From Limimaricola cinnabarinus (GTDB taxonomy: Bacteria > Pseudomonadota > Alphaproteobacteria > Rhodobacterales > Rhodobacteraceae), in NCBI RefSeq assembly GCF_002723615.1, contig NZ_KZ304958.1, positions 1 to 64,000 on the forward strand: DNA of 64,000 nucleotides. Reading direction: 5' to 3'. Positions 20,493-39,031 of this stretch are shown piece after piece (position 1 is the first letter of the stretch; the number at the start of each line of letters is the position of its first letter). A program made the position numbers and the translations under genes. The notes beneath the pieces were generated by a model. It was not told the origin of the DNA. It was given only the letters and a program-made list of their open reading frames with translations, and searched no databases.

Positions 20493-21926
20493 ATGGCTGA
20501 CACTTCCATTGGGACACCGGAGCAACTCCGCGATCCCAATTTCACGCCGCCGCTCTACAAGGCGATCCCGCTGGGAATCCAGCACGTGCTCGCCATGTTC
20601 GTGGCCAATGTCACCCCGGCCATCATCGTCGCGGGCGCGGCGGGCTTCGGTTTCGGCTCCAACTCGCCCGATTTTCCCGAGCTGCTCTACCTGATCCAGA
20701 TGTCGATGCTCTTCGCGGGCCTCGCCACGCTGTTGCAGACGATCACCGTGGGGCGCGTCGGCGCGGCGCTGCCGATCGTGCAGGGCACCTCGTTTGCCTT
20801 CCTGCCGGTGATGATCCCGCTGGTGGCCGGCAAGGGGGTGGACGGCCTCGCCGCGCTTTACGGCGGCATCATCGTGGGGGGGCTGTTCCATGCCAGCCTC
20901 GGCCTCGTCATCGGGCGCATCCGCTTTGCGCTTCCGCCGCTCGTCACCGGCCTCGTGGTGACGCTGATCGGTCTCGCCCTGGTGCAGGTCGGCATCCAAT
21001 ACGCGGCGGGCGGTGTGCCGGCCAAGGCCTCCGGCGCGGCCGAATACGGCTCGGCGCTCAACTGGTCGGCCGCCTTCGTGGTCATCCTCGTGACGCTCGG
21101 GCTCAAATTCTTCACCCGCGGCATGCTTGCGGTCTCGGCGGTGCTGATCGGCCTGATCGCGGGCTATTTCTACGCGCTGGCCGTCGGCATCCTGACGCCC
21201 GAGGCGATCGCCGGGTCGTGGAACAACGCCGCCGCCTTCGCCCTGCCCGATCCCTTCCGCTACGGCATCGACTTCACCGTCGCCGCGATCCTGGGCTTCT
21301 GCCTGATGGCCTTCGTTTCGGCGGTCGAGACGGTGGGCGACGTGTCGGGCATCACCAAGGGCGGCGCGGGGCGCGAGGCGACCGACCGCGAGATCGAGGG
21401 CGCGACCTTCGCCGACGGCCTCGGCACCGCCGTCGCCGGCGTGTTCGGCGGCCTGCCCAACACCTCGTTCAGCCAGAATGTCGGCCTGATCGCCATGACC
21501 GGCGTGATGAGCCGCCACGTCGTCACCTGCGACGCGATCTTCCTGATCGTCTGCGGGCTGGTGCCCAAGGTCGGCGGGGTGATCCGCACCGTTCCGATCG
21601 AGGTGCTGGGCGGCGGCGTGATCGTGATGTTCGGCATGGTCGTCGCCGCCGGCGTGTCGATGCTGTCGGAGGTCGACTGGAACAAGCGCAACATGGTGAT
21701 CTTCGCGGTGTCGCTGAGCCTTGGCCTCGGTCTGCAACTCGAACCGCAGGCGGTGCAATACCTGCCGGAGACGGCGCGGGTCCTGCTGACATCGGGCCTT
21801 CTGCCCGCGGCCTTCATCGCCATCGCGCTGAACCTGCTCCTGCCGGAAACGCTCGCCGAGGAGACCTTTCCGCCGGTGCCGGACCCGAATGCGCGGATGA
21901 TGCCGCCCGAAACGCCCCGGCACTGA
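20493..21926 (+). CDS. NCS2 family nucleobase:cation symporter (xanthine/urate/uracil permease)
   Basis: 477-aa inner-membrane carrier with about 14 hydrophobic segments. IQHVLAMFVANVTPAIIV near residue 30 is the family's first-helix signature and NTSFSQNVGLIAMTGVMSRHV near 320 is the NCS2 signature (substrate-site region). The start at 20493 has AGGGAGG 7 nt upstream. Given the urate-degradation genes 14-18 kb away, a purine (xanthine or urate) is the likely substrate; uracil is an alternative. It lies directly before bhcR. Confidence 0.88.
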   Translation: MADTSIGTPEQLRDPNFTPPLYKAIPLGIQHVLAMFVANVTPAIIVAGAAGFGFGSNSPDFPELLYLIQMSMLFAGLATLLQTITVGRVGAALPIVQGTSFAFLPVMIPLVAGKGVDGLAALYGGIIVGGLFHASLGLVIGRIRFALPPLVTGLVVTLIGLALVQVGIQYAAGGVPAKASGAAEYGSALNWSAAFVVILVTLGLKFFTRGMLAVSAVLIGLIAGYFYALAVGILTPEAIAGSWNNAAAFALPDPFRYGIDFTVAAILGFCLMAFVSAVETVGDVSGITKGGAGREATDREIEGATFADGLGTAVAGVFGGLPNTSFSQNVGLIAMTGVMSRHVVTCDAIFLIVCGLVPKVGGVIRTVPIEVLGGGVIVMFGMVVAAGVSMLSEVDWNKRNMVIFAVSLSLGLGLQLEPQAVQYLPETARVLLTSGLLPAAFIAIALNLLLPETLAEETFPPVPDPNARMMPPETPRH

Positions 21927-21945
21927 AGCCGCCTTCGAGAACCGG

Positions 21946-21970
21946 ACGCCAGCCCTCGACGGGCTGGCGT
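21946..21970 (+). terminator. Terminator-like hairpin after NCS2 permease
   Basis: ACGCCAGCCC (21946-21955) and GGGCTGGCGT (21961-21970) form a perfect 10-bp stem with a 5-nt loop, 20 nt after the permease stop, followed by CTTGCC. The T-tract is short, so termination is likely but not certain. It separates the permease from bhcR. Confidence 0.6.
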
Positions 21971-22033
21971 CTTGCCATGAAGCTGCACCAGCTTGCGCCG
22001 ACACGGATGACAGCGGCAGGGAGGGCCGGAGCG

Positions 22034-22861
22034 ATGCAGACAGAGCCGATGACCCCACGGCGCCGGGGGCGCCCGCGCGGCAGCCTCAAGGATACAAGAC
22101 CACCGGCGATCAAATCGCTCGATCGGGCCATCGATGTGCTCGAAAGGATCGGCGCGGGCGGCACGACATTGTCGCTGCTGGCCGCCGATCTCGATGAATC
22201 GCCCTCCACGCTCTACCGCGTATTGTTGACGCTCGAGGCGCGCGATCTGGTCGAGTTCGAAGAGGACGGGCAGATCTGGCACATGGGGTCCGGCGCGTTC
22301 CGGTTGGGGTCGACCTTTCTGCGCCGCACCAATCTCGTCGATCGGGCCCGGCCGATCCTGCGCCGCCTGATGGAGGAGACGGGCGAAACCGCCAATCTCG
22401 GCGTCGAGCGCGGCGGGCAGGTGCTGTTTCTCAACCAGGTCGAGACGCATGCGCATATCCGGGCCTTCTTTCCGCCGGGAACCGTCTCGGCGATGCATGC
22501 CTCGGGGATCGGGAAGGCATTGCTCTGCACGTTCGATCCGGCGCGGCGCGACCGTATTCTCGATGCGCACCCGCTCGAACGCTTCACGCCCCGCAGCCTG
22601 ACCGATCGCGCCGCCCTGATCGCCGATCTCGACCGCTGCGCCGCGCGGGGCTATGCCGTCGATGACGAGGAGCGCAACGAGGGCATGCGCTGCATCGCGG
22701 CGGCGGTCTGCGATGCGCAAGGCGAAGCGGTGGCAGGGCTGTCGGTCTCCGGGCCGGTGGCCCGGCTTGCCGATACGGATCTGCCCCGGCTGACCGAAGC
22801 GGTGCGAGAGGCCGCGGCGCAGCTGACGCGGGCGATCGGGGGCATCGCGCAAGCGCGCTGA
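22034..22861 (+). CDS. bhcR: IclR-family regulator, BhcR-like
   Basis: 275-aa regulator. The N-terminal winged helix-turn-helix (about residues 24-85, with TLSLLAADLDESPSTLYRVLLTLE) and C-terminal IclR effector domain (HASGIGKALLCTFD and RGYAVDDEERNEGMRCIAAAV) are both complete. The start at 22034 is chosen for AGGGAGG 9 nt upstream; in-frame ATGs at 21977 and 22007 are weaker. Its place directly before bhcABCD matches BhcR of Paracoccus, which senses glyoxylate and controls the beta-hydroxyaspartate cycle. The symbol rests on this context. Confidence 0.87.
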   Translation: MQTEPMTPRRRGRPRGSLKDTRPPAIKSLDRAIDVLERIGAGGTTLSLLAADLDESPSTLYRVLLTLEARDLVEFEEDGQIWHMGSGAFRLGSTFLRRTNLVDRARPILRRLMEETGETANLGVERGGQVLFLNQVETHAHIRAFFPPGTVSAMHASGIGKALLCTFDPARRDRILDAHPLERFTPRSLTDRAALIADLDRCAARGYAVDDEERNEGMRCIAAAVCDAQGEAVAGLSVSGPVARLADTDLPRLTEAVREAAAQLTRAIGGIAQAR

Positions 22862-23254
22862 TCCTTGCGCCGCGATCGAGACCACGCAGGAACAAGCCGG
22901 TCGGTTGCCAGTGATGCGCAAGGCCGCGCTGCCGATCGGGCCGGGCTGCTTTCTGCAACCGGGGTGCCCTGCCGCGCCTGCACGGCCCCGCGCCACGGCG
23001 GCGCAAACCGCATCTGCCCCAAGGCGCGGCCGATCCCGGTTTCGGCGATATCCTTCGGCTCCAGCCCGATCATCTGGAAAATCAAGAAAGTCATAAACAT
23101 ACGGCCGGCCACGGCCCGCGGCGAGTGAAAAATGCAAGGCACTGATATAATTTAATTTATCTTAATAATGCGAAAAGGAAAAACGATTTCAAAAATATAT
23201 ACGGCTCGGTTGGCGCATCCTAACCTCTCTCCAAGGCACTCCATGGAGGATAGG
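22862..23254. promoter_or_regulatory. bhcR-bhcA intergenic region with AT-rich promoter island
   Basis: 393 nt. The part 23124-23210 is strikingly AT-rich in this GC-rich genome and holds TATAAT at 23146-23151 and an interrupted dyad GAAAAACGATTTC near 23178-23190; this is the expected bhcA promoter and BhcR-binding area. A GGAGGATAGG just before the bhcA ATG is the ribosome-binding site. In 22862-23092 the minus strand has a GC3-rich open frame with no recognisable product. Confidence 0.55.
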
Positions 23255-24445
23255 ATGAGCTTTCAGAACCCGGTCTTCATTCCAGGTCCGACCAACATGC
23301 CGGAGGCGCTGCGCCAGGCCTGTTACATGCCGACGATCGATCATCGTTCGCCGGTTTTCGGAAAGATCCTGCATCCCTGCCTCGACGGCGTGCGAAAGGT
23401 GCTGAGATCCGAGAGCGCGAAGATCTTCATCTTTCCCTCGACCGGCACCGGCGGCTGGGAAACGGCGCTGACCAACACCCTTTCGCCGGGCGACGGCGTT
23501 CTGGCCGCGCGCAACGGCATGTTCAGCCATCGCTGGATCGACATGTGCCAGCGCCACGGGCTGGATGTCACGGTGGTCGAGGCGGCCTGGGGCGAGGGTA
23601 TTCCCGCCGATCGCTACGAGGAGATCCTGCGCGCCGATACCGCGCATGAGATCAAGGTCGTGCTCGCCACGCATAACGAGACCGCGACGGGCGTGCGCTC
23701 GGACATCGCCGCCGTGCGCCGCGCGCTCGACGCGGCGGGGCACCCGGCGCTGCTCTTCGTCGATGGCGTCAGCTCGATTGCCTCGATGGAATTCCGCTTC
23801 GACGATTGGGGCGTCGATATCGCCGTCACCGGCAGCCAGAAGGGCTTCATGCTGCCCGCGGGCCTCGCCATTCTCGGCTTTTCCGACAAGGCGATGAAGG
23901 CGGTGGAAACGGCGCGGCTGCCGCGGACCTTCTTCGACGTGCGCGACATGATGAAGGGCTACGCCGCCAATGCCTTTCCCTACACGCCGCCCGTCGGGCT
24001 GATGAACGGGCTGAAGCTGTCGCTCGACATGCTGCTCGAAGAGGGGCTCGACGAGGTCCATGCCCGCCACCACCGGATCGCGGAGGGCGTGCGCCGGGCG
24101 GTCGGCGCCTGGGGGCTGGAGCTCTGCGCCGTCTCGCCGGATCTCTATTCCGACACGGTGACGGCGGTGCGCACGCCCGAGGGCCATGATGCCACCGACA
24201 TCGTCACCGTCGCGGCCGAACGCTACGGCATGGCCTTCGGCGTCGGGCTGGGCGAGGTGGCGGGCAAGGTGTTCCGCATCGGCCATCTGGGTTCGCTCAC
24301 CGACGCGATGATGCTGTCGGGCCTCGGGGTCGCGGAGATGGTCATGGTCGATCTCGGCCTGCCGATCACGCTCGGCTCGGGCGTGGCGGCGGCGCAGGAG
24401 CATTACCGCCATGGCAAGGCCGCCCCGGCCGAGGCGGCGGCGTGA
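23255..24445 (+). CDS. bhcA: L-aspartate--glyoxylate aminotransferase BhcA
   Basis: 396-aa PLP-dependent class V aminotransferase (serine-glyoxylate/alanine-glyoxylate aminotransferase fold). PGPTNMPEALRQA at the N-terminus, FPSTGTGGWETAL (cofactor phosphate site) and the PLP lysine in VTGSQKGFMLPAGLA are visible. BhcA converts glyoxylate to glycine using aspartate as amino donor, the first step of the beta-hydroxyaspartate cycle. ATG 23255 has GGAGG at good spacing; the frame continues upstream but into the AT-rich promoter. The stop overlaps the bhcB start. Serine-glyoxylate aminotransferase would be the call without the bhcBCD neighbours. Confidence 0.92.
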   Translation: MSFQNPVFIPGPTNMPEALRQACYMPTIDHRSPVFGKILHPCLDGVRKVLRSESAKIFIFPSTGTGGWETALTNTLSPGDGVLAARNGMFSHRWIDMCQRHGLDVTVVEAAWGEGIPADRYEEILRADTAHEIKVVLATHNETATGVRSDIAAVRRALDAAGHPALLFVDGVSSIASMEFRFDDWGVDIAVTGSQKGFMLPAGLAILGFSDKAMKAVETARLPRTFFDVRDMMKGYAANAFPYTPPVGLMNGLKLSLDMLLEEGLDEVHARHHRIAEGVRRAVGAWGLELCAVSPDLYSDTVTAVRTPEGHDATDIVTVAAERYGMAFGVGLGEVAGKVFRIGHLGSLTDAMMLSGLGVAEMVMVDLGLPITLGSGVAAAQEHYRHGKAAPAEAAA

Positions 24446-25428
24446 TGAAGGATCAATGCGAGATGCCCATCCCGACCTATGAGGACGTGAAGGCCGCGCA
24501 TGAGCGCATCCGCCCCCATGTCCACCGCACCCCGGTTCTGACCTCGTCGCATCTGAACGACCTCGCCGGCTGCGAGCTGTTCTTCAAATGCGAGAACTTC
24601 CAGAAGGCCGGCGCCTTCAAGGTGCGCGGCGCCTCGAACGCGGTGTTCGGCCTTTCGGACGAACAGGCCAGGCGCGGCGTGGCGACCCACAGCTCGGGCA
24701 ACCACGCGCTGTCGCTCAGCTATGCCGCCGGGCGGCGCGGCATCCCGTGCCACGTGGTCATGCCGCGCACCGCGCCGCAGGCCAAGAAGGACGCGGTGCG
24801 CGGCTATGGCGGCATCATCACCGAATGCGAGCCCTCGACCTCCTCGCGCGAAGAGTACTTCGCCCGCGTGCAGGAAGAGACCGGCGCCGATTTCGTGCAT
24901 CCCTACAACGACCCGCGCGTGATCGCGGGGCAGGGGACCTGCGCGCGCGAGCTGATGGAGCAGATGGGCGAGAGGGGCGGCGGGCTCGATTGCGTCGTCG
25001 CGCCGATCGGCGGCGGCGGCATGATCTCGGGCAGCTGCCTGACGTTGTCGACCATCGCGCCCGAGGTGAAGATCTATGCCGCCGAGCCCGAGCAGGCCGA
25101 CGATGCCGCGCGCAGCTTCCGCGCCGGCCACATCATCGCCGACGACGCGCCCGAGACCGTCGCCGACGGGCTGAAGGTGCCGCTCAAGGATCTGACCTGG
25201 CATTTCGTGTCGCACCACGTGACCGACATCCTGACCGCTTCGGAGGCCGAGATCGTCGATGCGATGGAGCTGATCTGGAAGCGCATGAAGATCGTGATGG
25301 AGCCATCGAGCGCGGTGCCGCTCGCGACCATCCTGAAGAACCCGGACGTCTTCGCGGGCCAGCGCGTCGGCGTCGTCATCACCGGCGGCAATGTCGATCT
25401 GAACAAGCTGCCATGGATGCAGAAATGA
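24445..25428 (+). CDS. bhcB: Erythro-beta-hydroxyaspartate dehydratase BhcB
   Basis: 327-aa PLP fold-type II enzyme of the serine/threonine dehydratase family. The PLP lysine is in GAFKVRGA (about residue 59), SSGNHALSLSYAA follows, and the phosphate-binding loop GGGGMISG is near 185. BhcB releases ammonia from beta-hydroxyaspartate to form iminosuccinate. Start options are GTG 24442, ATG 24445 (one-base overlap with bhcA stop) and ATG 24463, which leads into MPIPTYEDVKAAHERI and may be the true one. The ending ITGGNVDLNKLPWM is typical of the family. Its stop overlaps bhcC. Confidence 0.93.
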   Translation: MKDQCEMPIPTYEDVKAAHERIRPHVHRTPVLTSSHLNDLAGCELFFKCENFQKAGAFKVRGASNAVFGLSDEQARRGVATHSSGNHALSLSYAAGRRGIPCHVVMPRTAPQAKKDAVRGYGGIITECEPSTSSREEYFARVQEETGADFVHPYNDPRVIAGQGTCARELMEQMGERGGGLDCVVAPIGGGGMISGSCLTLSTIAPEVKIYAAEPEQADDAARSFRAGHIIADDAPETVADGLKVPLKDLTWHFVSHHVTDILTASEAEIVDAMELIWKRMKIVMEPSSAVPLATILKNPDVFAGQRVGVVITGGNVDLNKLPWMQK

Positions 25429-25439: not shown

Positions 25440-26600
25440 ATGAAGGACCATTCCCACCAAGACCTCGAAGTCGGTTTCGACGTGCCTGCCCTGCCGGGCA
25501 TGGATGCAAGCGAGATCCAGACGCCTTGCCTGATCCTCGACCTCGACGCGCTGGAGCGCAACATCAGGAAGATGGGCGATTACGCCAAGGCGCATGGCAT
25601 GCGCCACCGCTCCCACGGCAAGATGCACAAGTCGGTCGATGTGCAGAAGCTTCAGGAAGAGCTTGGCGGCGCGGTCGGCGTCTGCTGTCAGAAGGTCTCG
25701 GAGGCCGAGGTCTTCGTGCGCGGCGGGATCAAGGACGTGCTGGTGTCGAACCAGGTGCGCGACCCGGCCAAGATCGACCGGCTGGCGCGGCTGCCCAAGC
25801 TCGGCTCGAAGATCATCGTCTGCGTCGACGACGTGGACAACGTGGCCGACCTGTCGGCCGCGGCCGAAAAGCACGGCACGGTGATCCACTGCTTCGTCGA
25901 GATCGATTGCGGCGCCGGGCGCTGCGGTGTCACCACCACCGAGGCGGTGGTCGAGATCGCCAAGGCGATCGACGCGGCGCCGGGGCTCGAATTCACCGGA
26001 CTGCAGGCCTACCAGGGCGCGATGCAGCACATCGACAGCTTCGAGGAGCGCAAGGCCAAGCTCGACGCCGCCATCGCGCAGGTGACCGAGGCGGTCGAGG
26101 CGCTGAAGGCCGAGGGGCTGGAGCCCGAGCTGGTCTCGGGCGGCGGCACCGGCAGCTATTACTTCGAGAGCAATTCGGGCGTCTACAACGAGCTGCAATG
26201 CGGCTCCTACGCCTTCATGGACGCCGATTACGGGCGCATCCATGACAAGGAGGGCAAGCGCATCGACCAGGGCGAATGGGAGAACGCGCTGTTCATCCTG
26301 ACCTCGGTGATGAGCCACGCCAAAGCCGACAAGGCGATCGTCGATGCGGGGCTCAAGGCGCAGTCGGTCGATAGCGGCCTGCCCTTCATCTACGGGCGCA
26401 GGGACGTCGAATACGTCAAATGCTCGGACGAGCACGGCGTGGTGGCCGACCCCGAGGGCGTGCTGAAGATCAACGAGAAGCTGCGGCTGGTGCCCGGTCA
26501 CTGCGACCCGACCTGCAACGTCCATGACTGGTATGTCGGCGTGCGGAACGGCAAGGTCGAGACACTCTGGCCGGTCTCGGCGCGCGGCAAGGCCTACTGA
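25440..26600 (+). CDS. bhcC: Beta-hydroxyaspartate aldolase BhcC
   Basis: 386-aa PLP fold-type III enzyme related to D-threonine aldolase. The N-terminal barrel holds the PLP lysine in HRSHGKMHKS (K61). VSGGGTGSYYF is the cofactor phosphate-binding region, and the C-terminal beta domain ends with the metal-binding GHCDPTCNVHDW. BhcC condenses glycine with glyoxylate to erythro-beta-hydroxyaspartate. ATG 25440 (with AAAGG upstream) is chosen; an ATG at 25425, overlapping the bhcB stop, would add five residues. A GC-rich stem-loop follows the gene. Confidence 0.93.
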   Translation: MKDHSHQDLEVGFDVPALPGMDASEIQTPCLILDLDALERNIRKMGDYAKAHGMRHRSHGKMHKSVDVQKLQEELGGAVGVCCQKVSEAEVFVRGGIKDVLVSNQVRDPAKIDRLARLPKLGSKIIVCVDDVDNVADLSAAAEKHGTVIHCFVEIDCGAGRCGVTTTEAVVEIAKAIDAAPGLEFTGLQAYQGAMQHIDSFEERKAKLDAAIAQVTEAVEALKAEGLEPELVSGGGTGSYYFESNSGVYNELQCGSYAFMDADYGRIHDKEGKRIDQGEWENALFILTSVMSHAKADKAIVDAGLKAQSVDSGLPFIYGRRDVEYVKCSDEHGVVADPEGVLKINEKLRLVPGHCDPTCNVHDWYVGVRNGKVETLWPVSARGKAY

Positions 26601-26665: not shown

Positions 26666-27631
26666 ATGATCATCGTGCCCGAAGCGGTCATCGCCGACCT
26701 CATCACCCCCGAGGCGAGTTTCGACGCGGTCGAACAGGTCTTTGCCTCGATGGCGGCGAAATCGGCCTACAACTTCCCGGTCATCCGCGAGGCGATCGGC
26801 CATGCCGACGCGCTTTACGGCTTCAAGTCGGGCTTCGACCGGGCGGGGCTGAATCTCGGGCTGAAATCGGGCGGCTACTGGCCGGGCAATGCCGAGCGCG
26901 GCCTGACCAACCACCAGTCGACCGTCTTCCTGTTCGACGCCGACACCGGCAAATGCCGCGCCGTGGTGGGCGGCAACCTGCTGACCGCGCTGCGCACCGC
27001 CGCCGCCGCCGCCGTTTCGGTCGCGCATCTGGCGCGAAAGGACGCGAAGGTGCTGGGCATCGTCGGCGCGGGGCATCAGGCGGCGTTCCAGCTGCGCGCG
27101 GTTGCCGCGCAGCGCGGTTTCGAGCGCGTGGTGGCCTGGAACCGCAGCCCCGAAAAGCTCGACCGTCTGGCGAAGGTCGCCGCCGAGCTGGGCCTGCCCT
27201 TCGAGAGCGTCTCGCTCGACGATCTGGGCGCGCAATCGGACGTGATCGTCACCATCACCTCGAGCTTCGACGCGATCCTGCGCGACGCGCAGGTCCGGCC
27301 CGGCACGCATCTGGCCTGCATGGGCACCGACACCAAGGGCAAGCAGGAGGTCGAGGCGGCGCTGCTGGCCCGCACACGCGTCTTCACCGACGAGATCGCG
27401 CAGTCGGTCAGCCTCGGCGAGGCGCAGCACGCGATCGCGGATGGCCACCTGCGCGAGGCCGACATCGCCGAGCTGGGCGCCGTCATCAACGGCACCCATC
27501 CGGGGCGGGCTTCGGCCGATGAGATCACCCTGTTCGACGGCACCGGCGTCGGGCTTCAGGACCTCGCCGTCGCCTCCGCCGCGGTCGATCTCGCGGTCGA
27601 GAAGGGCGTCGCCGTCGAGGTGGAGTTCTAG
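26666..27631 (+). CDS. bhcD: Iminosuccinate reductase BhcD (ornithine cyclodeaminase/mu-crystallin family)
   Basis: 321-aa NAD(P)-dependent enzyme of the ornithine cyclodeaminase family. LYGFKSGFDRAG and LGLKSGGYWPGN contribute substrate-site lysines, and GIVGAGHQAAFQ (near residue 133) is the dinucleotide motif. In the beta-hydroxyaspartate cycle BhcD reduces iminosuccinate to aspartate, which BhcA then uses as amino donor, so the cycle nets oxaloacetate from two glyoxylates. The cluster order A-B-C-D is what makes this assignment firm. Confidence 0.92.
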   Translation: MIIVPEAVIADLITPEASFDAVEQVFASMAAKSAYNFPVIREAIGHADALYGFKSGFDRAGLNLGLKSGGYWPGNAERGLTNHQSTVFLFDADTGKCRAVVGGNLLTALRTAAAAAVSVAHLARKDAKVLGIVGAGHQAAFQLRAVAAQRGFERVVAWNRSPEKLDRLAKVAAELGLPFESVSLDDLGAQSDVIVTITSSFDAILRDAQVRPGTHLACMGTDTKGKQEVEAALLARTRVFTDEIAQSVSLGEAQHAIADGHLREADIAELGAVINGTHPGRASADEITLFDGTGVGLQDLAVASAAVDLAVEKGVAVEVEF

Positions 27632-27634
27632 GTC

Positions 27635-28618
27635 ATGGCCCTGCGCGTCGCGATCAACGGCTTCGGGCGGATCGGGCGCAGCATCCTGCGCCTGCTGGCG
27701 ACCGCGCGGCGCGACGACGGCATCGAGATCGCCTGCATCAACGACATCGCGCCGCTCGACAGCTGCGCCTACCTGTTCGAATATGACAGCGTGTTCGGCC
27801 CCTTTCCGGGCCGGATCGAGGCGGGCGACGGGGTGCTCTCGGTCGAGGGGCGGGCGATCCCGTTTCACCACGAGGCCGACCTGTCGCGGCTCGATCTTGC
27901 GGGGGTCGACCTGGTTCTGGAATGCACCGGCCGGGCGAACGACCCCGCCGTGGCCGCGCGCGGGCTCAAGGCCGGGGCGGGGCGGGTGCTGATCTCGGGC
28001 CCGTCGGAGGCGGCGGAGGCGACCGTGGTGCTTGGTGCCAATGACGGGATCCTGGCCGATCAGCGCATCCTCTCCTGCGGCTCCTGCACGACCAACGCGC
28101 TCGCGCCGCTGTTGCGGCTCATCGACGGGCTGTTCGGGCTCGAGGGCGGGCACATGACGACGGTGCATTGCTATACCGGGGCGCAGCCCACGGTCGACGC
28201 GCCGCGCGCCGATCCGGCGCGCAGCCGCGCGGCGGCGCTGTCGATGGTGCCGACCAGCTCCTCGGCCGGGCGGCTGACCGACCTGGTCCTGCCGGATCTG
28301 GCCGGGCGGGTGAGCTGCACCGCGCTGCGGGTGCCGGTGGCCAGCGTCTCGGCGGTCGATCTGACCGTCAGGCTGCGCGACCGGGGCGACATCGACGCGC
28401 GGCTGCGCGCGGCGGTGGCGGGGTCGCCTGTCCTTGGCTGGACCGACCGGCCGCTGGTCTCCTCGGACCTGCGGGCGCGGCCCGAATCCCTGATACTGGC
28501 GGGCCCCGAGATCCGCCACGGCCCCGAGCTGAGCCGCCTGTTCGGCTGGTACGACAATGAATGGGGCTTTTCCAACCGGATGATCGATCTGGCGCTGCGC
28601 ATGGGCGCGCGCCGGTAA
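27635..28618 (+). CDS. gap: Glyceraldehyde-3-phosphate dehydrogenase family protein
   Basis: 327-aa NAD(P)-dependent dehydrogenase. INGFGRIGRSILR at the N-terminus, the catalytic cysteine in SCGSCTTNALAPLL (about residue 151), TVHCYTGAQPTVDAPR with the catalytic histidine, and the C-terminal WYDNEWGFSNRM are all present, so it should be active. It starts 4 nt after bhcD, inside the bhc transcript. Family members also include erythrose-4-phosphate dehydrogenase; cofactor preference is not readable. The HMTTVHCYT region departs modestly from housekeeping Gap proteins, suggesting a second, specialised copy. Confidence 0.88.
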   Translation: MALRVAINGFGRIGRSILRLLATARRDDGIEIACINDIAPLDSCAYLFEYDSVFGPFPGRIEAGDGVLSVEGRAIPFHHEADLSRLDLAGVDLVLECTGRANDPAVAARGLKAGAGRVLISGPSEAAEATVVLGANDGILADQRILSCGSCTTNALAPLLRLIDGLFGLEGGHMTTVHCYTGAQPTVDAPRADPARSRAAALSMVPTSSSAGRLTDLVLPDLAGRVSCTALRVPVASVSAVDLTVRLRDRGDIDARLRAAVAGSPVLGWTDRPLVSSDLRARPESLILAGPEIRHGPELSRLFGWYDNEWGFSNRMIDLALRMGARR

Positions 28619-31153: not shown

Positions 31154-32650
31154 ATGACGACAATCCGTGACACGACCGATGGCCGCGATGCGGTCGACGA
31201 GATGATCCCGCCGGGCAAGCTGTTCACGCTCGGGCTTCAGCATGTTCTGGTGATGTATGCCGGCGCCATCGCGGTGCCGTTGATCATCGGCCGCGTGCTG
31301 GGGCTCGACTCCGAGCAGGTGGCCTTCCTGATCTCGGCCGATCTTTTCGTCTGCGGTCTCGTCACCATCATCCAGTCGCTCGGCGCGTCGAAATGGTTCG
31401 GGGTGCGGCTGCCGGTGATGATGGGGGTGACCTTTGCCAGCGTCGGCCCGATGGTCTCGATCGGGATCGCCAATCCGGGCACCGAAGGGGCACGGATGAT
31501 CTTCGGCGCGATCATCGGCGCGGGCGTGATCGCGATGCTGATCGCGCCGCTGGTCAGCCGGATGCTGCGCTTCTTTCCGCCGGTGGTCACCGGCACGATC
31601 ATCCTGGTGATCGGCGTGACGCTGATGCGGATCGGCATCAACTGGATCTTCGGCCTGCCGGTCGGTCCGACCGCGCCCAAGCTCGTCGATCCCAGCCATG
31701 CCGCCTGGCTCGAACAGGTGCGCGCCATGACCGGCGCCCCCGAGATGCCCGGCGGCCTGGCCATCGCGCCCTCGGCCGAGAACCCGGCCTATGCCGCGCC
31801 TGTCAACATCGCCATCTCGGCGGTGGTGCTCGGCACGATCATCCTCGTGATGAAGCTCGCCCGCGGCTTCTGGTCGAACATCTCGGTGCTCTTGGGCATC
31901 GTCGTGGGGGGCAGCGTCGCCGCCTCGCTCGGGATGATGCATTTCGAGCATGTCGCGACCGCCGACTGGTTCGAGCTGATCACGCCGTTCCGCTTCGGCC
32001 TGCCGATCTTCGACCCGGTGATGATCCTGACCATGACGCTGGTGATGATCGTGGTGATGATCGAATCCACCGGCATGTTCCTTGCCCTGTCGGACATGTG
32101 CGAGCGCAAGCTGGAGCGTCCGACGCTCTCGGCGGGGCTGCGTACGGATGGCTTGGGCACCCTGATCGGCGGTCTGTTCAACACCTTTCCCTACACCTCG
32201 TTCAGCCAGAATGTCGGACTCGTCGGCGTCACCGGCATCCGCTCGCGCTATGTCTGCGTGATGGGTGGCGCGATCATGATCGTGCTGGGGCTGATCCCCA
32301 AGATGGGGGCGCTGGTCGAGGCGCTGCCGGTGGCGGTGCTGGGCGGCGCCGGGCTGGTGATGTTCGGCATGGTCGCGGCGACCGGCGTGCGCATTCTCGG
32401 CGGCGTCGATTTCAAGCTGAACCGCTTCAACGGGTTGATCGTGGCGATCTCGCTCGGTGTCGGGATGATCCCGCTCATCGCGCCGGACTTCAAGATGCAC
32501 ATCCCCCACGCGATCCACCCGCTGATCGACAGCGGCATCCTGCTGGCCTCGATTTCGGCGGTGCTGCTCAACGCCGTGTTCAACGGCACCTCGGCCGAAG
32601 CCGAGGCGCAGGCCCGCGAAAGCGCGCTGGCCTCCGACGGAGCGCACTGA
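31154..32650 (+). CDS. NCS2 family nucleobase:cation symporter (urate/xanthine permease)
   Basis: 498-aa membrane carrier with about 13-14 hydrophobic segments. LGLQHVLVMYAGAIAVPLII at the N-terminus and the signature NTFPYTSFSQNVGLVGVTG near residue 345 are typical of PucJ/PucK/UacT-type urate and xanthine permeases, which differ from uracil carriers. GGAGGAGAACTGA precedes the ATG. It begins the ureide block (channel, PuuD, HIU hydrolase and others), so urate is the best guess. It is clearly a different subgroup from the 20.5 kb paralogue. Confidence 0.88.
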   Translation: MTTIRDTTDGRDAVDEMIPPGKLFTLGLQHVLVMYAGAIAVPLIIGRVLGLDSEQVAFLISADLFVCGLVTIIQSLGASKWFGVRLPVMMGVTFASVGPMVSIGIANPGTEGARMIFGAIIGAGVIAMLIAPLVSRMLRFFPPVVTGTIILVIGVTLMRIGINWIFGLPVGPTAPKLVDPSHAAWLEQVRAMTGAPEMPGGLAIAPSAENPAYAAPVNIAISAVVLGTIILVMKLARGFWSNISVLLGIVVGGSVAASLGMMHFEHVATADWFELITPFRFGLPIFDPVMILTMTLVMIVVMIESTGMFLALSDMCERKLERPTLSAGLRTDGLGTLIGGLFNTFPYTSFSQNVGLVGVTGIRSRYVCVMGGAIMIVLGLIPKMGALVEALPVAVLGGAGLVMFGMVAATGVRILGGVDFKLNRFNGLIVAISLGVGMIPLIAPDFKMHIPHAIHPLIDSGILLASISAVLLNAVFNGTSAEAEAQARESALASDGAH

Positions 32651-32765: not shown

Positions 32766-33278
32766 ATGCTCCTGCCCCTGTCGCTGCTGTTCGTCGGTGC
32801 CGTCCTCGTGCTGAACGGCATCTGGATGACCGGGCGCATCGACGATCGAGAGATCGTCCTGATCAACCTCGTGACCGCGACCGTCACCGCCGCGGTGGCG
32901 GTGGCGACGGCGATCGGCGCGGCCGAGATGGCGGCGGTCAGGTCGGCGGCGCTGACCTTGCTGTTCACCACCACCTATCTCTGGGTCGCCTACAACCGGA
33001 TGACCGGCGCCGATGGCCGTGGCCTGGGCTGGTTCAGCCTTTTCGTCTCGCTCACCGTGCTGCCGGTGGCGGCGCAGGCCGTGATGGCGGCAGAGGGGCC
33101 GATGTCGCTTTGGCTGGGCCTGAACTGGGCCGCCTGGTCGGGGCTGTGGTTCATGTATTTCCTGCTGCTGGCGCTCGGGCGTCCCCTGCTTCGGGTCACC
33201 GCCCTGGCCACGCTGGCCAGCGGCGTCTTCACCGGCTGGCTGCCGGGGCTTGTCCTGTTGAACGGCTGGGGATCGTGA
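32766..33278 (+). CDS. AmiS/UreI-family urea/amide channel
   Basis: 170-aa membrane protein with about six hydrophobic segments. TTYLWVAYNRMTG followed by GRGLGWFSLFV, and the C-terminal FTGWLPGLVLLNGWG, fit the AmiS/UreI channel family in both position and total length. UreI of Helicobacter passes urea; AmiS homologues accompany amidases. Here urea is produced by ureidoglycolate breakdown nearby, so urea import or release is a reasonable role. Its last 50 nt overlap, convergently, the end of the LysR gene on the other strand. Confidence 0.8.
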   Translation: MLLPLSLLFVGAVLVLNGIWMTGRIDDREIVLINLVTATVTAAVAVATAIGAAEMAAVRSAALTLLFTTTYLWVAYNRMTGADGRGLGWFSLFVSLTVLPVAAQAVMAAEGPMSLWLGLNWAAWSGLWFMYFLLLALGRPLLRVTALATLASGVFTGWLPGLVLLNGWGS

Positions 33279-34200
33279 TCGCGCGGCTCGTGCCGTCCTT
33301 GCCGAAGCTGCGCTGAATCGCCTCGACGAGAAAATCGATGAACAGCCGCGTCTTCGGGTCCTGATGCCTGCGATGCACGAACAGGCAAGCGAGCTGCACC
33401 GGCAAGGGAGGCGTCTTCTCGCAGACCTGCACCAGGGCGCCGCTTTCGAGATAGGGCGCAACCTCGATGAGCGGCTTCATGATGATGCCCTGATCGGCCA
33501 GCGCCCAATCGGTCAGCACGTCGCCATCGTCGGATTCGAGCCGGCCGCGCACGTCGAACCGCCGCGGACCCTCACTCGTCGACAGCATCCACTGGAACTC
33601 GGTCGCGCCGGGAAAGCGCAGGTTGAGGCAGCTGTGCCGGCCCCCCTCGATCTCGCGGCCTTCCGTGGGATGGCCGGCGCGGGCGATGTAGCCGGGGCTC
33701 GCGCAGAGCACCCGCGGGCAATCGGCGATGTTGCGGATGCGCAGGCTGCTGTCTTCGGGCCGGCCGAGGATGAAGGCCAGGTCGAGCCCCTCGGTGGCGA
33801 TGTCGACCTTGCGGTCGCTGAGCCGCAGCCGAATGTTGATCAAGGGATAGGCCTCGCAGAACCGCGGGATCTGCGGCGCGATCAGCCTTCGCCCGAGACC
33901 CAGGGGCGCCGCGATGTGCAGCGTGCCGCGCGGGTTCTCGGTGGTGTCGTCGACCGCGGCCTCCGCCCGCTCGACCGTGGCCAGGATATCCTGCGCGCCT
34001 TCGTAGAAGATCTGGCCATGCTCCGTCGGCGACAGGCTGCGGGTGGTCCGCAGGAACAGCCGCACGCCGAGATGCTCCTCGAGCTGGGCGATGCGGGCCG
34101 AGGCCACCGCCGCCGAGATACGCTGATCCCGCGCCGCCGCCGACATGCTGCCGAGTTCGTATATGCGCGTGAAGGTCCGGATATTGTCTAGATAGGCCAT
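33229..34200 (-). CDS. LysR-family transcriptional regulator of the ureide block
   Basis: 323-aa regulator with an N-terminal winged helix (MSAAARDQRISAAVASARIAQ region) and a LysR substrate-binding domain (GTLHIAAPLGLGRRLIAPQI). It is divergent from puuD across only 95 nt, so urate hydroxylase is the likely target; the effector could be urate or a ureide. The C-terminal 25 residues are polar and lie over the end of the convergent AmiS/UreI gene. Confidence 0.88.
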   Translation of the reverse strand: MAYLDNIRTFTRIYELGSMSAAARDQRISAAVASARIAQLEEHLGVRLFLRTTRSLSPTEHGQIFYEGAQDILATVERAEAAVDDTTENPRGTLHIAAPLGLGRRLIAPQIPRFCEAYPLINIRLRLSDRKVDIATEGLDLAFILGRPEDSSLRIRNIADCPRVLCASPGYIARAGHPTEGREIEGGRHSCLNLRFPGATEFQWMLSTSEGPRRFDVRGRLESDDGDVLTDWALADQGIIMKPLIEVAPYLESGALVQVCEKTPPLPVQLACLFVHRRHQDPKTRLFIDFLVEAIQRSFGKDGTSRAITIPSRSTGQAPAASR

Positions 34201-34244: not shown

Positions 34245-34295
34245 CAGAAAATGCGCCCCGCGGTACTGTCTTCTCGATCTTGAGGAGGATGCCGA

Positions 34296-35573
34296 ATGTA
34301 TGATCTGGCCATTATCTGGGACTGGCTGGCCTTTGCGGTCCGCTGGTTGCACGTCATCACCGCGATCGCCTGGATCGGATCGAGCTTCTACTTCGTGGCG
34401 CTGGATCTGGGGCTGAACCGCAATATCTCCGGCCCCGCCGATGGCGAGGAGTGGCAGGTGCATGGCGGCGGCTTCTACCACATCCGCAAATATCTCGTGG
34501 CCCCCGATGCGATGCCCGACCACCTGACATGGTTCAAATGGGAGAGCTACGCGACCTGGCTCTCGGGCGCGGCGCTTTTGATGATCGTCTATTGGGTCGG
34601 GGCGGAGCTTTATCTCATAGATCCCTCCAAGGCCGATCTCGCGGTCTGGCAGGGCATCGCGATCTCGGGCGCGTCGCTGAGCATCGGCTGGCTGGTCTAT
34701 GACCGGCTGTGCAAATCGCCCCTGGGCGACAGGCCGACCACGCTCATGCTGCTTCTGTTCGTGCTGCTGGTCGTCATGAGCTGGGGCTATCACCAGGTCT
34801 TCACCGGGCGCGCGGCGCTGCTGCATCTCGGCGCCTTCACGGCGACGATCATGTCGGCCAACGTGTTCTTCATCATCATGCCGAACCAGCGCATCGTGGT
34901 CGCCGATCTGAAGGCGGGCCGCAAGCCCGACCCGAAATACGGCAAGATCGCCAAGCTGAGAAGCACGCATAACAACTACCTGACCCTGCCGGTCCTGTTC
35001 CTGATGCTGTCGAACCACTACCCGCTGGCCTACGGCACCGAACATGCCTGGATCATCGCGGCGCTGGTGTTTCTCATCGGGGTCTGCATCCGGCACTACT
35101 TCAACACCATGCACCAGCGGAAGGCGGCGCCGAGCTGGACCTGGGCGGTCACGGTCATCCTGTTCATCACGCTGGCCTGGCTCTCGACCGCGCCGTTCAT
35201 GTTCGAGGAGTACGAGACCTCGGAGGCCGCCGAACTGGAAGGCAGCGCGCTGCATTATGCCCAGGCCGCCGGTTTCGACGAGGTGGAGCAGATCGTGGTC
35301 GGCCGCTGCTCCATGTGCCACGCGCGCGAGCCGGTCTGGGAGGGCATCCGCTGGGCCCCCAAGGAGGTACTGCTCGAAACCCGCGCCGACATCGCGGGCG
35401 CGGCGCGGCAGATCTATCTGCAGGCGGGGGTCAGCCACGCGATGCCACCCGCCAACATCACCGAGCTTCCCGAAGAGGATCGGCGGGCGATCCGGCGCTG
35501 GTATCGTCAGGCCGACGAGACCCCGCGCCCCGTCGAGGAGACGGGCGAGATCGTGATCGGGCAGGGGTCATGA
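34296..35573 (+). CDS. puuD: Urate hydroxylase PuuD (membrane, cytochrome c domain)
   Basis: 425 aa. About eight membrane helices (residues 1-310; first helix region WLHVITAIAWIGSSFYFV) followed by a C-terminal cytochrome c domain with heme motif CSMCH starting at residue 338 and a downstream methionine in SHAMPPANIT. PuuD oxidises urate to 5-hydroxyisourate, passing electrons to the respiratory chain through its c-type heme instead of making hydrogen peroxide as UOX does. It opens the urate catabolic branch, with the HIU hydrolase following. Confidence 0.92.
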   Translation: MYDLAIIWDWLAFAVRWLHVITAIAWIGSSFYFVALDLGLNRNISGPADGEEWQVHGGGFYHIRKYLVAPDAMPDHLTWFKWESYATWLSGAALLMIVYWVGAELYLIDPSKADLAVWQGIAISGASLSIGWLVYDRLCKSPLGDRPTTLMLLLFVLLVVMSWGYHQVFTGRAALLHLGAFTATIMSANVFFIIMPNQRIVVADLKAGRKPDPKYGKIAKLRSTHNNYLTLPVLFLMLSNHYPLAYGTEHAWIIAALVFLIGVCIRHYFNTMHQRKAAPSWTWAVTVILFITLAWLSTAPFMFEEYETSEAAELEGSALHYAQAAGFDEVEQIVVGRCSMCHAREPVWEGIRWAPKEVLLETRADIAGAARQIYLQAGVSHAMPPANITELPEEDRRAIRRWYRQADETPRPVEETGEIVIGQGS

Positions 35574-35707: not shown

Positions 35708-36061
35708 ATGCCCGGATACCTGACCACCCATGTTCTCGACACCGCGCGCGGCGGCCCCGCCGCGGGGGTGCGGATCACGCTCGCGCGGATCGAGGGGGAG
35801 AGGCGGCGGGTGATCAAGGAGATGGTCACCAACGAAGATGGCCGCACCGATGCGCCGATCCTGCCCGAGGCGGAGTTCGAGACCGGCACCTACGAGCTGG
35901 TCTTCGCGGTGGGCGATTATCTCGATGGCTGCGGCGTCGCACCCGAGAGCCCGCGCTTTCTCGACGCGGTGCCGCTGCGCTTCGGCATGTCGCGGCAGGA
36001 TCATTACCACGTGCCGCTCCTGGTCTCGCCCTTCGGCTATTCGACCTATCGCGGCAGCTGA
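35708..36061 (+). CDS. uraH: 5-hydroxyisourate hydrolase (transthyretin-like)
   Basis: 117 aa, the usual size. [19 protein letters not shown] at the N-terminus and the C-terminal YSTYRGS are diagnostic of HIU hydrolases and distinguish them from transthyretin. It hydrolyses 5-hydroxyisourate to OHCU. AAAGGAG precedes the ATG. It is the second step after PuuD; a hairpin that may serve both strands follows. Confidence 0.95.
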
Positions 36062-36069
36062 GACTGAGG

Positions 36070-36097: not shown

Positions 36098-36110
36098 GCA
36101 TCATCCGGTT

Positions 36111-36599
36111 TCAGCCGGTGATCTGCCAGGGCACCTCGAGCCGGTGCTCCTGCAGGTTCGCGCCGGGGCCGATGCGGTCGACCACGGCAAAGAGCCCCGG
36201 CGCCGCAAGCGGCGTCAGCACGCCGTGCCAGGTGTTGCGCAGCAGGTTGATCCCCTGTCCCGGCGTGGTGACGAAGGCGCGCGGCGTGCCGGGGCGGCCT
36301 TCTTCGTCGGGTGCCACGATGACGAGAAAGGCGGCGAGGCTGAGCGGCAGGAAGGCCTGGCTGCCATCGGGGTGCCGCTCCAGCAGGTCGAGCCTGTAAG
36401 GCAGGGCGCGCGGCTCGGCGTCGAAGACCGAGATCCCGGCGCGACCGCCTTCCCCGAAATCGAGCCGGGCGAGGTCGTGGTGCCGCCCGCAGAGCCCCTC
36501 ATTGATGATCCTGTCGGGCGCGCCCGCGGCCTCGATCACGTCGCCATAGGGGGCGAAGGCCTCGCGCGTCAGCGGCTCTGTGCGGATTTCGCGGCTCAT
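36111..36599 (-). CDS. allA: Ureidoglycolate lyase
   Basis: 162 aa, the AllA family length. TREAFAPYGDVIEA at the N-terminus, GISVFDAEPRALP, LLERHPDGSQAFLPL and a C-terminal NTWHGVLTPL are conserved family features. It splits ureidoglycolate to glyoxylate and urea, the final step supplying glyoxylate to the bhc cycle. Its start overlaps the PuuE-UraD stop by 4 nt (ATGA), so they are co-translated. Confidence 0.92.
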   Translation of the reverse strand: MSREIRTEPLTREAFAPYGDVIEAAGAPDRIINEGLCGRHHDLARLDFGEGGRAGISVFDAEPRALPYRLDLLERHPDGSQAFLPLSLAAFLVIVAPDEEGRPGTPRAFVTTPGQGINLLRNTWHGVLTPLAAPGLFAVVDRIGPGANLQEHRLEVPWQITG

Positions 36600-38005
36600 G
36601 GCAGGATCGCCTTCAGCCGGTGCAGCGCGATCCGCTCGACCTGGGCGCAGGCCTCGGCGAACTCGGTGTCGCGGTCGCTGTTCACGCGCGCCTCGAAGGC
36701 GGCGAGAATGCCCGCCTTGTCGTGATCGCGCACGGCGATGATGAAGGGGAAGCCGAACTTCGCGACATAGGCATCGTTCAGCTCGGTGAAGCGCGCGCGC
36801 TCTTCGTCGGTCAGCGCATCGAGCCCGGCGCTGGCCTGCTCGGCGGTGCTCTCGGCGGTCAGGCGTTTGGCCGCCGCGAGCTTGCCCGCGAGATCGGGGT
36901 GCGCGGTCAGCACGCCAAGCCGCTCCTCGTCGCTGGCGGCGCGGAAGGCGCGGGCGAGCGCGTTCTGCAGGCCGACCGCCGTGTCATGCGCGGGACCGAG
37001 CTCGAGGTCATGCGCGCGCTCGGCGATCCAGGCCGAATGCTCGAAGATGCCGCCGAAGCGGTCGACGAAGCGCGCGCGGTCCATCTCGGAGGGGCGCTCG
37101 CGCGCCACCGGCGGATGGGTCGCGGCCCAATGCTCGGCAATTTCGAGCCTCGTGGCGAACCACACCCCCTCGTGGCGGCGGACATAATCGAGAAAGCGCC
37201 GGAGCGCCTGCGCCCGGCCGGGCCGCCCGACGAGGCGGCAATGCAGGCCGATCGACATCATCTTCGGCGCGCCTTCGAGCCCTTCCTCGTAGAGGCAGTC
37301 GAAGCTGTCCTTCAGGTAGGAGAAATACTGGTCGCCCGAGTTGAAGCCCTGCGGCGTGGCGAAGCGCATGTCATTGGCGTCGAGCGTGTAGGGCACGATC
37401 AGCTGGTCATGCTCACCGAAGCGCGACCAGTAGGGCAGGTCGTCGGCATAGGTGTCGGCGGCATAGGCGAAGGAGCCGTTCTCGGCCACGAGCCGCACCG
37501 TGTTGTCCGAGGAGCGGCCCGTGTACCAGCCGCGCGGCGCCTCGCCGACCACCTGCGTGTGCAGCCGGATCGCCTCTTCCATGTCGGCGCGCTCGGTCGC
37601 CTCGTCGGCGTCCTTGTACTCGATCCATTTCAGGCCGTGCGACGCGATCTCCCAGTTCGCCGCCTTCATCGCCGCGACCTGTTCGGGGCTGCGCGCCAGC
37701 GCCGTGGCGACGCCGTAGACGGTGACGGGGAGATCCTCGAGCATCCGGTAGAGCCGCCAGAACCCGGCGCGCGCGCCGTATTCATAGATCGACTCCATGT
37801 TCCAGTGCCGCTGGCCCGGCCATTGCGCGGCGCCGACGATCTCCGAGAGGAAGGCTTCCGATCCCGCGTCGCCATGCAGGATGTTGTTCTCGCCGCCCTC
37901 CTCGTAGTTGAGCACGATCTGCACGGCGATCTTGGCGCCGTTCGGCCATTTCGGATCGGGGGTCTCGGCGCCGTAGCCGATCATGTCGCGGGGATAGCGG
38001 GTCAC
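36596..38005 (-). CDS. puuE-uraD: Allantoinase PuuE fused to OHCU decarboxylase UraD
   Basis: 469 aa, two enzymes in one chain. Residues 1 to about 300 are a PuuE-type allantoinase of the polysaccharide-deacetylase fold (YPRDMIGYGAETPDPKWP, SHGLKWIEY, SIGLHCRLVGRPGR). About 310-469 are 2-oxo-4-hydroxy-4-carboxy-5-ureidoimidazoline decarboxylase (FEHSAWIAERA, TAHPDLAGKLAA, FGFPFIIAVRD). It would take OHCU to S-allantoin and then to allantoate. The start is GTG at 38005 with GGAGAT upstream; the in-frame ATG at 38065 has no such signal. The fusion order decarboxylase-last is reverse to pathway order. Confidence 0.92.
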   Translation of the reverse strand: MTRYPRDMIGYGAETPDPKWPNGAKIAVQIVLNYEEGGENNILHGDAGSEAFLSEIVGAAQWPGQRHWNMESIYEYGARAGFWRLYRMLEDLPVTVYGVATALARSPEQVAAMKAANWEIASHGLKWIEYKDADEATERADMEEAIRLHTQVVGEAPRGWYTGRSSDNTVRLVAENGSFAYAADTYADDLPYWSRFGEHDQLIVPYTLDANDMRFATPQGFNSGDQYFSYLKDSFDCLYEEGLEGAPKMMSIGLHCRLVGRPGRAQALRRFLDYVRRHEGVWFATRLEIAEHWAATHPPVARERPSEMDRARFVDRFGGIFEHSAWIAERAHDLELGPAHDTAVGLQNALARAFRAASDEERLGVLTAHPDLAGKLAAAKRLTAESTAEQASAGLDALTDEERARFTELNDAYVAKFGFPFIIAVRDHDKAGILAAFEARVNSDRDTEFAEACAQVERIALHRLKAILP

Positions 38006-38200
38006 GCGGGGATCTCCTTCTTCTGCCTCGGGCAGCATAGCGGCGAGGCGGCCGCCCGGCTGCACGAATTAATTTGAAGCTGTCTCGCGCAGAGCCTGCA
38101 TGATTATCAAGCGCAGGCTGAAATACCTTGCGGGCGGCCGGCGCTAGCCCGGTCTTGCCGGGCCATGCCAGACTGGCCCGCGACCCCACAGGAGATCGAC

Positions 38201-39031
38201 ATGACCGAGCGCAGCTATTTCGCCCAAGCCGGGGGGCACCCGACACAGACCGAGCTGATGACCGGGCGTGCCGTCTTCACCGAAAGCTATGCCGTGCTGC
38301 CCGCGGGCACGATGCGCGACATCACCACGAGCTTTCTGCCGTTCTGGGACGAGACCCGGCTTTGGGTGATCGCCCGGCCGCTCAGCGGCTTTGCCGAGAC
38401 CTTCTCGCAATACGTGATGGAGGTGGGGCCGGGCGGCGGCAGCGAGCGGGGCGAGACCGAGGCCGGTGTCGAAGGGGTGATCTTCGTGGTCGGCGGAGAG
38501 GTCGAGCTGTCCTTGAATGGCCAAACGCATGTGCTGGGCGAGGGGGGCTTTGCCTATCTTCCGGCCGGGCAGGGCTGGAGCCTGCGCAACCGCGGCGCCG
38601 GCCCGGCGCGGTTCCACTGGATCCGCAAGCTCTACGAGGCGGTCGAGGGGCTGGAGCGGCCCGATCCGATCATCAGCTCCGATGCCGAGGTCACGCCGAC
38701 CGAGATGCCCGGCACCGAGGGCCGCTGGGCCACGACCCGCTTCGTCGATCCCGCCGACCTGCGCCACGACATGCATGTCACCATCGTCACCTTCCAGCCC
38801 GGCGGCGTCATCCCCTTCGAGGAGACGCATGTGATGGAGCACGGGCTCTACGTGCTGGAGGGCAAGGCGGTCTACAAGCTCAACCGCGACTGGGTCGAGG
38901 TCGAGGCGGGCGATTTCATGTGGCTGCGCGCCTTCTGCCCGCAGGCCTGCTATGCCGGCGGGCCGGGGCCGTTCCGCTATCTTCTCTACAAGGACGTGAA
39001 CCGCCACGCGGGTTTCCTGCCGCGCCGCTGA
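38201..39031 (+). CDS. allE: (S)-ureidoglycine aminohydrolase
   Basis: 276-aa bicupin of the YlbA/AllE family. Two cupin domains (about residues 50-150 and 180-270); the C-terminal one carries the metal-binding EETHVMEHGLYVLEG. It hydrolyses ureidoglycine to ureidoglycolate and ammonia with the correct stereochemistry for AllA. ATG 38201 has GGAGATCGAC upstream and is preferred over the in-frame 38165. It is divergent from the puuE-uraD/allA operon across 195 nt that contain an AT-rich patch at 38066-38120. Confidence 0.92.
   Translation: MTERSYFAQAGGHPTQTELMTGRAVFTESYAVLPAGTMRDITTSFLPFWDETRLWVIARPLSGFAETFSQYVMEVGPGGGSERGETEAGVEGVIFVVGGEVELSLNGQTHVLGEGGFAYLPAGQGWSLRNRGAGPARFHWIRKLYEAVEGLERPDPIISSDAEVTPTEMPGTEGRWATTRFVDPADLRHDMHVTIVTFQPGGVIPFEETHVMEHGLYVLEGKAVYKLNRDWVEVEAGDFMWLRAFCPQACYAGGPGPFRYLLYKDVNRHAGFLPRR

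Follow-up and report, generated by a model that had tools for sequence, protein, structure and literature searches.

A stretch of 64,000 nucleotides from Limimaricola cinnabarinus (the window; positions 1-64000 of contig C8, which measures 142,801, in a genome of 3.80 Mb) joins, at positions 20493-39031, genes for purine degradation to bhcR-bhcABCD, the genes of the beta-hydroxyaspartate cycle (BHAC). The available data are in good probability explained by a catabolic island whose BHAC assimilates the glyoxylate released from purines, forming an analogue of the Escherichia coli all/gcl regulon with a different assimilation module. The linkage itself is real; it recurs among relatives and is nothing unusual there, and a metabolic coupling of the two halves is likely.

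Translations of the open reading frames were searched with profiles, and the bit scores were compared with NCBI curated equivalog cut-offs (Table 1). BhcR and BhcABCD all score above their cut-offs, with bhcABCD contiguous and bhcR next to bhcA. The purine half holds a PuuD-type pathway set, namely PuuD with its CXXCH motif, UraH, UraD, allantoinase, (S)-ureidoglycine aminohydrolase (UGLYAH) and ureidoglycolate lyase (AllA), each above its family cut-off or with a family match; the window allA is the sole AllA match of the genome at E<=1e-15. As such, the identities that the original prediction had assigned from the sequence to these genes and to the permeases are borne out by open reading frame calling and profile searches. 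The first permease most plausibly starts at the ATG at 20493, which follows a ribosome-site-like stretch, with a longer frame from 20424. UGLYAH also passes the NF040771 'bifunctional allantoicase/UGLYAH' model (487 vs 350 bits), and AllC above its cut-off was not found in the genome (best score 256 vs 598); if the family name is right, the cupin UGLYAH would cover the allantoate step. Two genes between bhcD and the second permease had previously been left unnamed, a GAPDH-like gene and an NADP-malic enzyme gene. The former, directly 3' of bhcD, scores below the cut-offs for both GAPDH-I and erythrose-4-phosphate dehydrogenase, and may have a gluconeogenic or a vitamin-B6-related role; three Bhc enzymes use pyridoxal phosphate.

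The biochemical logic of such an island is straightforward. PuuD oxidises urate, UraH and UraD lead on to allantoin, PuuE yields allantoate, and the cupin enzyme leads to ureidoglycolate, which AllA cleaves into glyoxylate and urea. BhcA-D, in turn, convert two glyoxylate into one oxaloacetate without loss of CO2. In the proposed pathway, xanthine or urate would be imported and degraded to glyoxylate, ammonia and urea, and the glyoxylate would then be assimilated as carbon, with the window bhc cluster presumably converting it to oxaloacetate. The adjoining malic enzyme may carry oxaloacetate, via malate, to pyruvate, while urea may pass through the UreI-type channel and be hydrolysed by a urease encoded elsewhere in the genome. 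The LysR-type regulator would sense purine and BhcR glyoxylate, such that the product of the first half would induce the second. For every two urate (10 C, 8 N), two glyoxylate and from them one oxaloacetate (4 C) would form, with the remaining six carbons leaving as CO2 and urea and eight nitrogens set free, so that urate as a carbon source would bring a large nitrogen excess. The rest of the genome is compatible with this scheme: XdhA (565 vs 467 bits) and urease (959 vs 680) are encoded on other contigs, and glyoxylate carboligase above its cut-off was not found in the whole genome (best score 314 vs 711; malate synthase was not searched), which makes the BHAC the likely net route for glyoxylate.

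The linkage recurs widely. In a family sample of 295 genomes, BhcD scores above its cut-off in 126 genomes at 129 places, the window included, and the flanks of every one of these bhcD loci, 10 kb in either direction where the contigs permit, were queried with the window proteins. A locus was called linked if at least two of five purine markers (AllA, PuuE-UraD, UraH, PuuD and UGLYAH) lie near bhcD; this holds for 39 loci, whereas a single marker is present in 11 and none in 55, and in the remaining 24 the flank is too short to tell. Specifically, UGLYAH is found within about 10 kb of bhcD in 40 loci, AllA in 39, UraH in 36, PuuE-UraD in 34 and PuuD in 29, alongside the GAPDH-like gene (36), the NCS2 permease (31), the LysR gene (29), the malic enzyme (6) and UreI (3). 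All 29 loci with a LysR match (at least 45% identity) carry at least one purine marker. A stretch of about 20 kb makes up roughly 0.5% of the 3.8-Mb genome, and the presence of AllA near bhcD in 39 of 129 loci thus exceeds chance. Genes that lie just outside the block in the window do not share this pattern: Rnk is near bhc only in the window itself, gamma-glutamyltransferase and TauE in no locus, 5-formyltetrahydrofolate cyclo-ligase in three (window included) and a DppD-like gene in four.

A pathway-blind count, in which frames of at least 120 amino acids from the 129 loci were clustered into families, gives the same picture, with UGLYAH in 38 loci, PuuE-UraD in 35, the GAPDH-like gene and the LysR gene in 29 each, AllA and the NCS2 permease in 26 each, PuuD in 24 and UraH in 15. 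Every other family of at least five members occurs in nine loci or fewer, besides bhcR-bhcABCD and one frame, present in 25 loci, that is antisense to bhcC by position. The purine genes, the LysR gene and the GAPDH-like gene are hence the commonest bhc neighbours in the family count. A scan of named genomes, restricted to the best 80 of 567 loci by match to the window BhcC, left 73 after removal of seven duplicates of the 129, and 24 of these are linked, nine have one marker and 40 have none. Among the linked loci are those of Paracoccus versutus, P. thiocyanatus, P. yeei and four Hyphomicrobiales, and 13 of the 23 Paracoccus-titled loci are linked. Leisingera aquaemixtae CECT 8399 (L232) has the complete set by bhc; for P. 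versutus DSM 582 (L225), AllA is absent from the stretch compared. In three Hyphomicrobiales, a glycolate or hydroxyacid oxidase adjoins bhc in place of purine genes. The original prediction hinged on the linkage being present in related genomes, which both surveys confirm, and the idea that it is unique to the window was accordingly rejected; the arrangement is common rather than special, and is found too in Paracoccus, the genus to which the BHAC model organism belongs. Three genomes have two bhcD loci each (G099, G055 and G173; loci L046, L047, L062, L076, L088 and L101): G099 has one linked and one unlinked locus, G055 pairs a linked locus with one whose sole marker is UGLYAH, and G173 has no linked locus.

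Table 1. Features of the island and candidate regulatory sites in the window (profile scores in bits, observed vs cut-off, unless an E-value is given).
Feature	Position	Strand	Evidence and remarks
Candidate BhcR-type box	20227-20243		score 12.1; upstream of the permease-bhcR unit; post hoc single case
NCS2 xanthine-type permease 1	20493-21926	+	TIGR03173 (pbuX) 410.6 vs 414.15, just below; TIGR00801 (NCS2 superfamily) 327 vs 292
bhcR, IclR-type regulator	22049-22861 (start 22034 or 22049)	+	NF045644 371 vs 350; bhcA on same strand
Candidate BhcR-type box	23176-23192		score 16.6; about 60 bp upstream of bhcA (start 23255)
bhcA, L-aspartate--glyoxylate aminotransferase	23255-24445	+	NF045640 743 vs 650; match from residue 30 of a longer frame
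bhcB, beta-hydroxyaspartate dehydratase	24442-25428	+	NF045641 601 vs 550
bhcC, 3-hydroxy-D-aspartate aldolase	25440-26600	+	NF045642 773 vs 690
bhcD, iminosuccinate reductase	26666-27631	+	NF045643 585 vs 500
GAPDH-like dehydrogenase, exact substrate uncertain	27635-28618	+	GAPDH-I 300 vs 367; E4PD 236 vs 531; SCTTN catalytic motif
NADP-dependent malic enzyme, malic and PTA domains	28631-30910	+	PRK12861 956, below cut-off 1178; Pfam malic/PTA
NCS2 xanthine permease 2	31154-32650	+	TIGR03173 498 vs 414
AmiS/UreI-type urea/amide channel	32766-33278	+	PF02293 E=1e-49
LysR-type regulator, probable regulator of purine genes	33229-34200	-	PF03466/PF00126
puuD, membrane cytochrome c urate hydroxylase	34296-35573	+	PF06181 E=2e-134; heme motif CSMCH at residue 338
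uraH, 5-hydroxyisourate hydrolase	35708-36061	+	TIGR02962 127 vs 87
allA, ureidoglycolate lyase (glyoxylate-releasing)	36111-36599	-	NF002952 282 vs 260
puuE-uraD fusion, allantoinase and OHCU decarboxylase	36596-38065	-	TIGR03212 528 vs 425; TIGR03164 208 vs 96
(S)-ureidoglycine aminohydrolase (UGLYAH), possibly also acting on allantoate	38165-39031	+	NF008373 510 vs 445

The candidate regulatory signals seem to draw a line between the two halves. The bhcR-bhcA intergenic regions share the palindrome TTGAAAAAnTTTTTCAA, and a BhcR-type matrix was trained on 188 of these regions (181 unique), the window region being outside the training set. Within the 129-locus set, 71 of 112 bhcR-bhcA regions have at least two boxes of score 8 or more, most commonly spaced by 71-73 bp, which fits the two-site hypothesis for BhcR given in part of PMC11323563. 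The two boxes listed in Table 1 are the strongest in the window, with 0.035 sites of score 12 or more expected per block-shuffled window, and in a Limimaricola variabilis plasmid bhcA is preceded, at the same distance, by a near-identical box. Across 215 loci, the window locus L091 excluded, 276 strong boxes were counted, against eight in all in block-shuffled loci: 233 at bhcR or bhcA promoters (matches that arise there partly by construction), 26 near no labelled gene and three at purine promoters. Presuming that the boxes belong to BhcR, this distribution makes control of the purine genes by BhcR improbable, and the bhc and purine halves seem to be regulated separately. The earlier reading is supported in its genes, their physical union and the logic by which the purine branch ends at glyoxylate, the BHAC substrate; the near-absence of boxes at purine promoters speaks against a tight coupling.

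The window also differs in the position of its regulator gene. Among 114 loci with a BhcR match, bhcR is divergent from bhcA in 112 and found in both orientations in one, and the window is the sole case in which it is co-oriented. One reading of this single case is that bhcR was relocated downstream of permease 1, with a candidate operator of its own. Between the permease and bhcR (21927-22049) lies a perfect hairpin with an 11-bp stem (about 21945-21971) and no T-run that could be a terminator or an attenuator, which leaves co-transcription of the two genes uncertain.

The arrangements of the cluster are diverse. Purine genes lie downstream, upstream or on both sides of bhc, and 31 different marker orders occur among 63 linked loci, a number to which clipped flanks contribute in part. 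The Paracoccus layout (bhcABCD, permease, guanine-deaminase-type gene, uraH, puuD, LysR gene and xdhA) is unlike the Leisingera type. A quickly built BhcABCD tree covers 125 loci and has 35 weak inner branches out of 122; in it, the window clusters with linked loci from G288 and G094, whose gene orders differ from its own, and the label 'some purine marker' or 'none' changes at least 20 times. Gains are indistinguishable from losses in such change counts; together with the many marker orders, they suggest a union that was rearranged and kept, or re-made.

A ParA/VirC1-like gene and a Rep3/RepM-like replication gene at 14466-16752 suggest that the window contig is a plasmid or chromid, with the island probably on a plasmid. 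Plasmid records with a BhcD relative number 114, and ten of these were examined as stretches. Four have a ureide enzyme and a permease by bhc, three of them with AllA, PuuE and PuuD; one more has guaD, xdhC and UGLYAH, one (Methylobacterium) has purine-oxidation-type genes, two have a glycolate or hydroxyacid oxidase, and two (Limimaricola and Paracoccus marcusii) are without marker genes. The Defluviimonas sp. SAOS-178_SWC plasmid runs UGLYAH-bhcR-bhcABCD-NCS1-malic enzyme-NCS2-UreI, and a 108-kb plasmid of Pseudosulfitobacter pseudonitzschiae holds allA, puuE, uraH, puuD, xdhABC, guaD, UGLYAH, bhcR and bhcABCD within 24 kb. A contig labelled Spirulina subsalsa with a 91% BhcC match (L187) is probably DNA of an associated alphaproteobacterium.

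Several observations weigh against an island devoted to purine carbon. A shared BhcR operator before the purine genes was considered and, on the census of candidate boxes, set aside as unlikely. In 55 bhc loci no purine marker lies nearby, and one BhcABCD clade of 24 loci lacks linked members altogether (markers absent in 17, flank too short in seven). The closest BhcD among named plasmids (88.5%), on the Limimaricola variabilis plasmid, belongs to a bhcABCD-GAPDH cluster without adjoining purine genes; no adjacent bhcR is annotated there, yet the box precedes bhcA, and genes for a urea transporter and for urease are located about 4-12 kb upstream. The sole other genome of the genus in the sample has PuuD and AllA and no BhcD match, and no plasmid record covering at least 80% of window positions 12000-36000 was found. 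Genome-level co-occurrence of bhc and purine genes was rejected as evidence, PuuD (277 of 295 genomes) and AllA (272 of 295) being so nearly universal in the family that it is uninformative. The allantoate step is tentatively assigned from a family name, and the source genome has a GlcD-like glycolate oxidase gene (C3, 456 bits vs a cut-off of 568), so that bhc is probably not dedicated to purines and may serve glycolate too.

The last point leads to an unlikely alternative, in which purine degradation would be for nitrogen alone and bhc for glycolate, as two nutrient modules brought together on an accessory replicon with purine glyoxylate as a minor by-product. The carbon-to-nitrogen ratio of purines makes nitrogen the obvious benefit, the purine promoters are nearly free of BhcR boxes, and a GlcD-like gene, always below the family cut-off, turned up in 79 of 80 genomes drawn from the 126 with bhc (38 with the linkage, 42 without). 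For this reason, absence of glycolate oxidase was rejected as a mark of purine dedication. The neighbourhoods, however, are the reverse of what glycolate as the selective partner would lead one to expect: GlcDEF adjoins bhc in one of the 129 loci, with a hydroxyacid oxidase match in one more, against 39 with purine genes, although a pairing of glycolate genes with bhc does occur in some Hyphomicrobiales.

A somewhat weaker candidate is inheritance or hitch-hiking, in which an ancestral cluster fell apart repeatedly and the linkage brings no advantage today. The label 'unlinked' is indeed clustered on the BhcABCD tree (30 changes vs 41 in shuffles), and the commonest marker order recurs in 17 of the 63 linked loci. 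Against this stand several quite different arrangements, among them the separate Paracoccus layout with its guanine-deaminase-type gene and xdhA, and the window itself, which is shuffled relative to its nearest linked loci while the set stays together. It is improbable that the BHAC mainly detoxifies the glyoxylate released by AllA, with the carbon gain incidental. Glyoxylate is reactive, AllA frees one per urate, and the two gene sets adjoin; a simple reductase would suffice for that purpose, however, and a full four-enzyme cycle that adjoins a malic enzyme, as in 6 of 129 loci, or a GAPDH-like gene, as in 36, resembles assimilation into central metabolism. Assimilation of purine-derived glyoxylate by the BHAC is thus the favoured explanation.

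Beyond the island, a second PuuD, 80% identical to that of the window, is encoded at C20:33031-33909 (L167), and other purine genes of the query set were not found in the 20 kb around it. A 5-formyltetrahydrofolate cyclo-ligase gene (19461-20135) lies just 5' of the island, and a 63% identical copy sits between bhcD and the permease in locus L093. Directly after the island, positions 39397-46929 hold dipeptide-type ABC transporter genes followed by gamma-glutamyltransferase, and a cobalamin riboswitch is located at 52557-52775 on the minus strand.

For specialists, the interest lies in the count: the usual identified bhc neighbours in this family are purine genes, not glycolate oxidase. If purine breakdown is the commonest partner of bhc, as counted in one family, nucleic-acid debris such as xanthine and urate may serve as net carbon, with no CO2 lost at glyoxylate assimilation and most of the nitrogen released as ammonia and urea, and the BHAC would be linked not to glycolate alone but also to dissolved organic nitrogen. 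A broader and more tentative proposal, which for now seems doubtful, is that Rhodobacterales as a whole retain the BHAC mainly to assimilate the carbon at the end of purine catabolism, glycolate being a second substrate supplied from elsewhere in the genome; the window would then be the most extended form seen, uniting permeases, urate degradation, BHAC and malic enzyme in one transferable urate-to-pyruvate island. The novelty of the linkage is provisional: it was not recognised in the titles or abstract openings of the open-access matches listed. A 2016 FEMS study reportedly dealt with xanthine use by Ruegeria pomeroyi. The introduction of PMC11323563 names purines and allantoin among glyoxylate sources, and the BHAC is treated in parts of that paper as a route for algal glycolate.

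In the E. coli all/gcl regulon, allantoin is converted to glyoxylate and then to glycerate, and AllR belongs to the IclR family. The likeness lies in a glyoxylate that is both made from purines and assimilated under a glyoxylate-sensing regulator of the IclR family; unlike all/gcl, the window uses the BHAC in place of glyoxylate carboligase, enters at urate through PuuD and has two regulators. AllR controls both the allantoin and the glyoxylate operons, as described in part of PMC11323563. Candidate BhcR-type boxes lie here almost only at bhc promoters, which speaks against a single IclR-type regulator of both halves. With the bhcR-bhcABCD cluster of Paracoccus denitrificans, a species outside the bhc loci compared, the window shares the same five gene families above their cut-offs and a palindromic candidate site upstream of bhcA, the Paracoccus site being described in part of PMC11323563; it differs in its co-oriented rather than divergent bhcR and in the attached purine, malic-enzyme and GAPDH-like genes. 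Rhizobium-type clusters (R. sophoriradicis; L205 and L211) also place bhcR-bhcABCD beside a glyoxylate-producing system, with glcDEF, not purine genes, as the adjoining source. Close parallels are plasmids of Defluviimonas, Leisingera aquaemixtae, Pseudosulfitobacter pseudonitzschiae and Alloyangia pacifica, which share bhcR-bhcABCD next to a 'bifunctional allantoicase/UGLYAH' and a nucleobase permease. In the latter three, bhc also has ureidoglycolate lyase, PuuE and PuuD beside it. In the stretches compared, these plasmid islands differ from the window in gene order, malic enzyme is annotated in Defluviimonas alone, and Pseudosulfitobacter includes both xdh and guaD, Leisingera only the former and Alloyangia only the latter.

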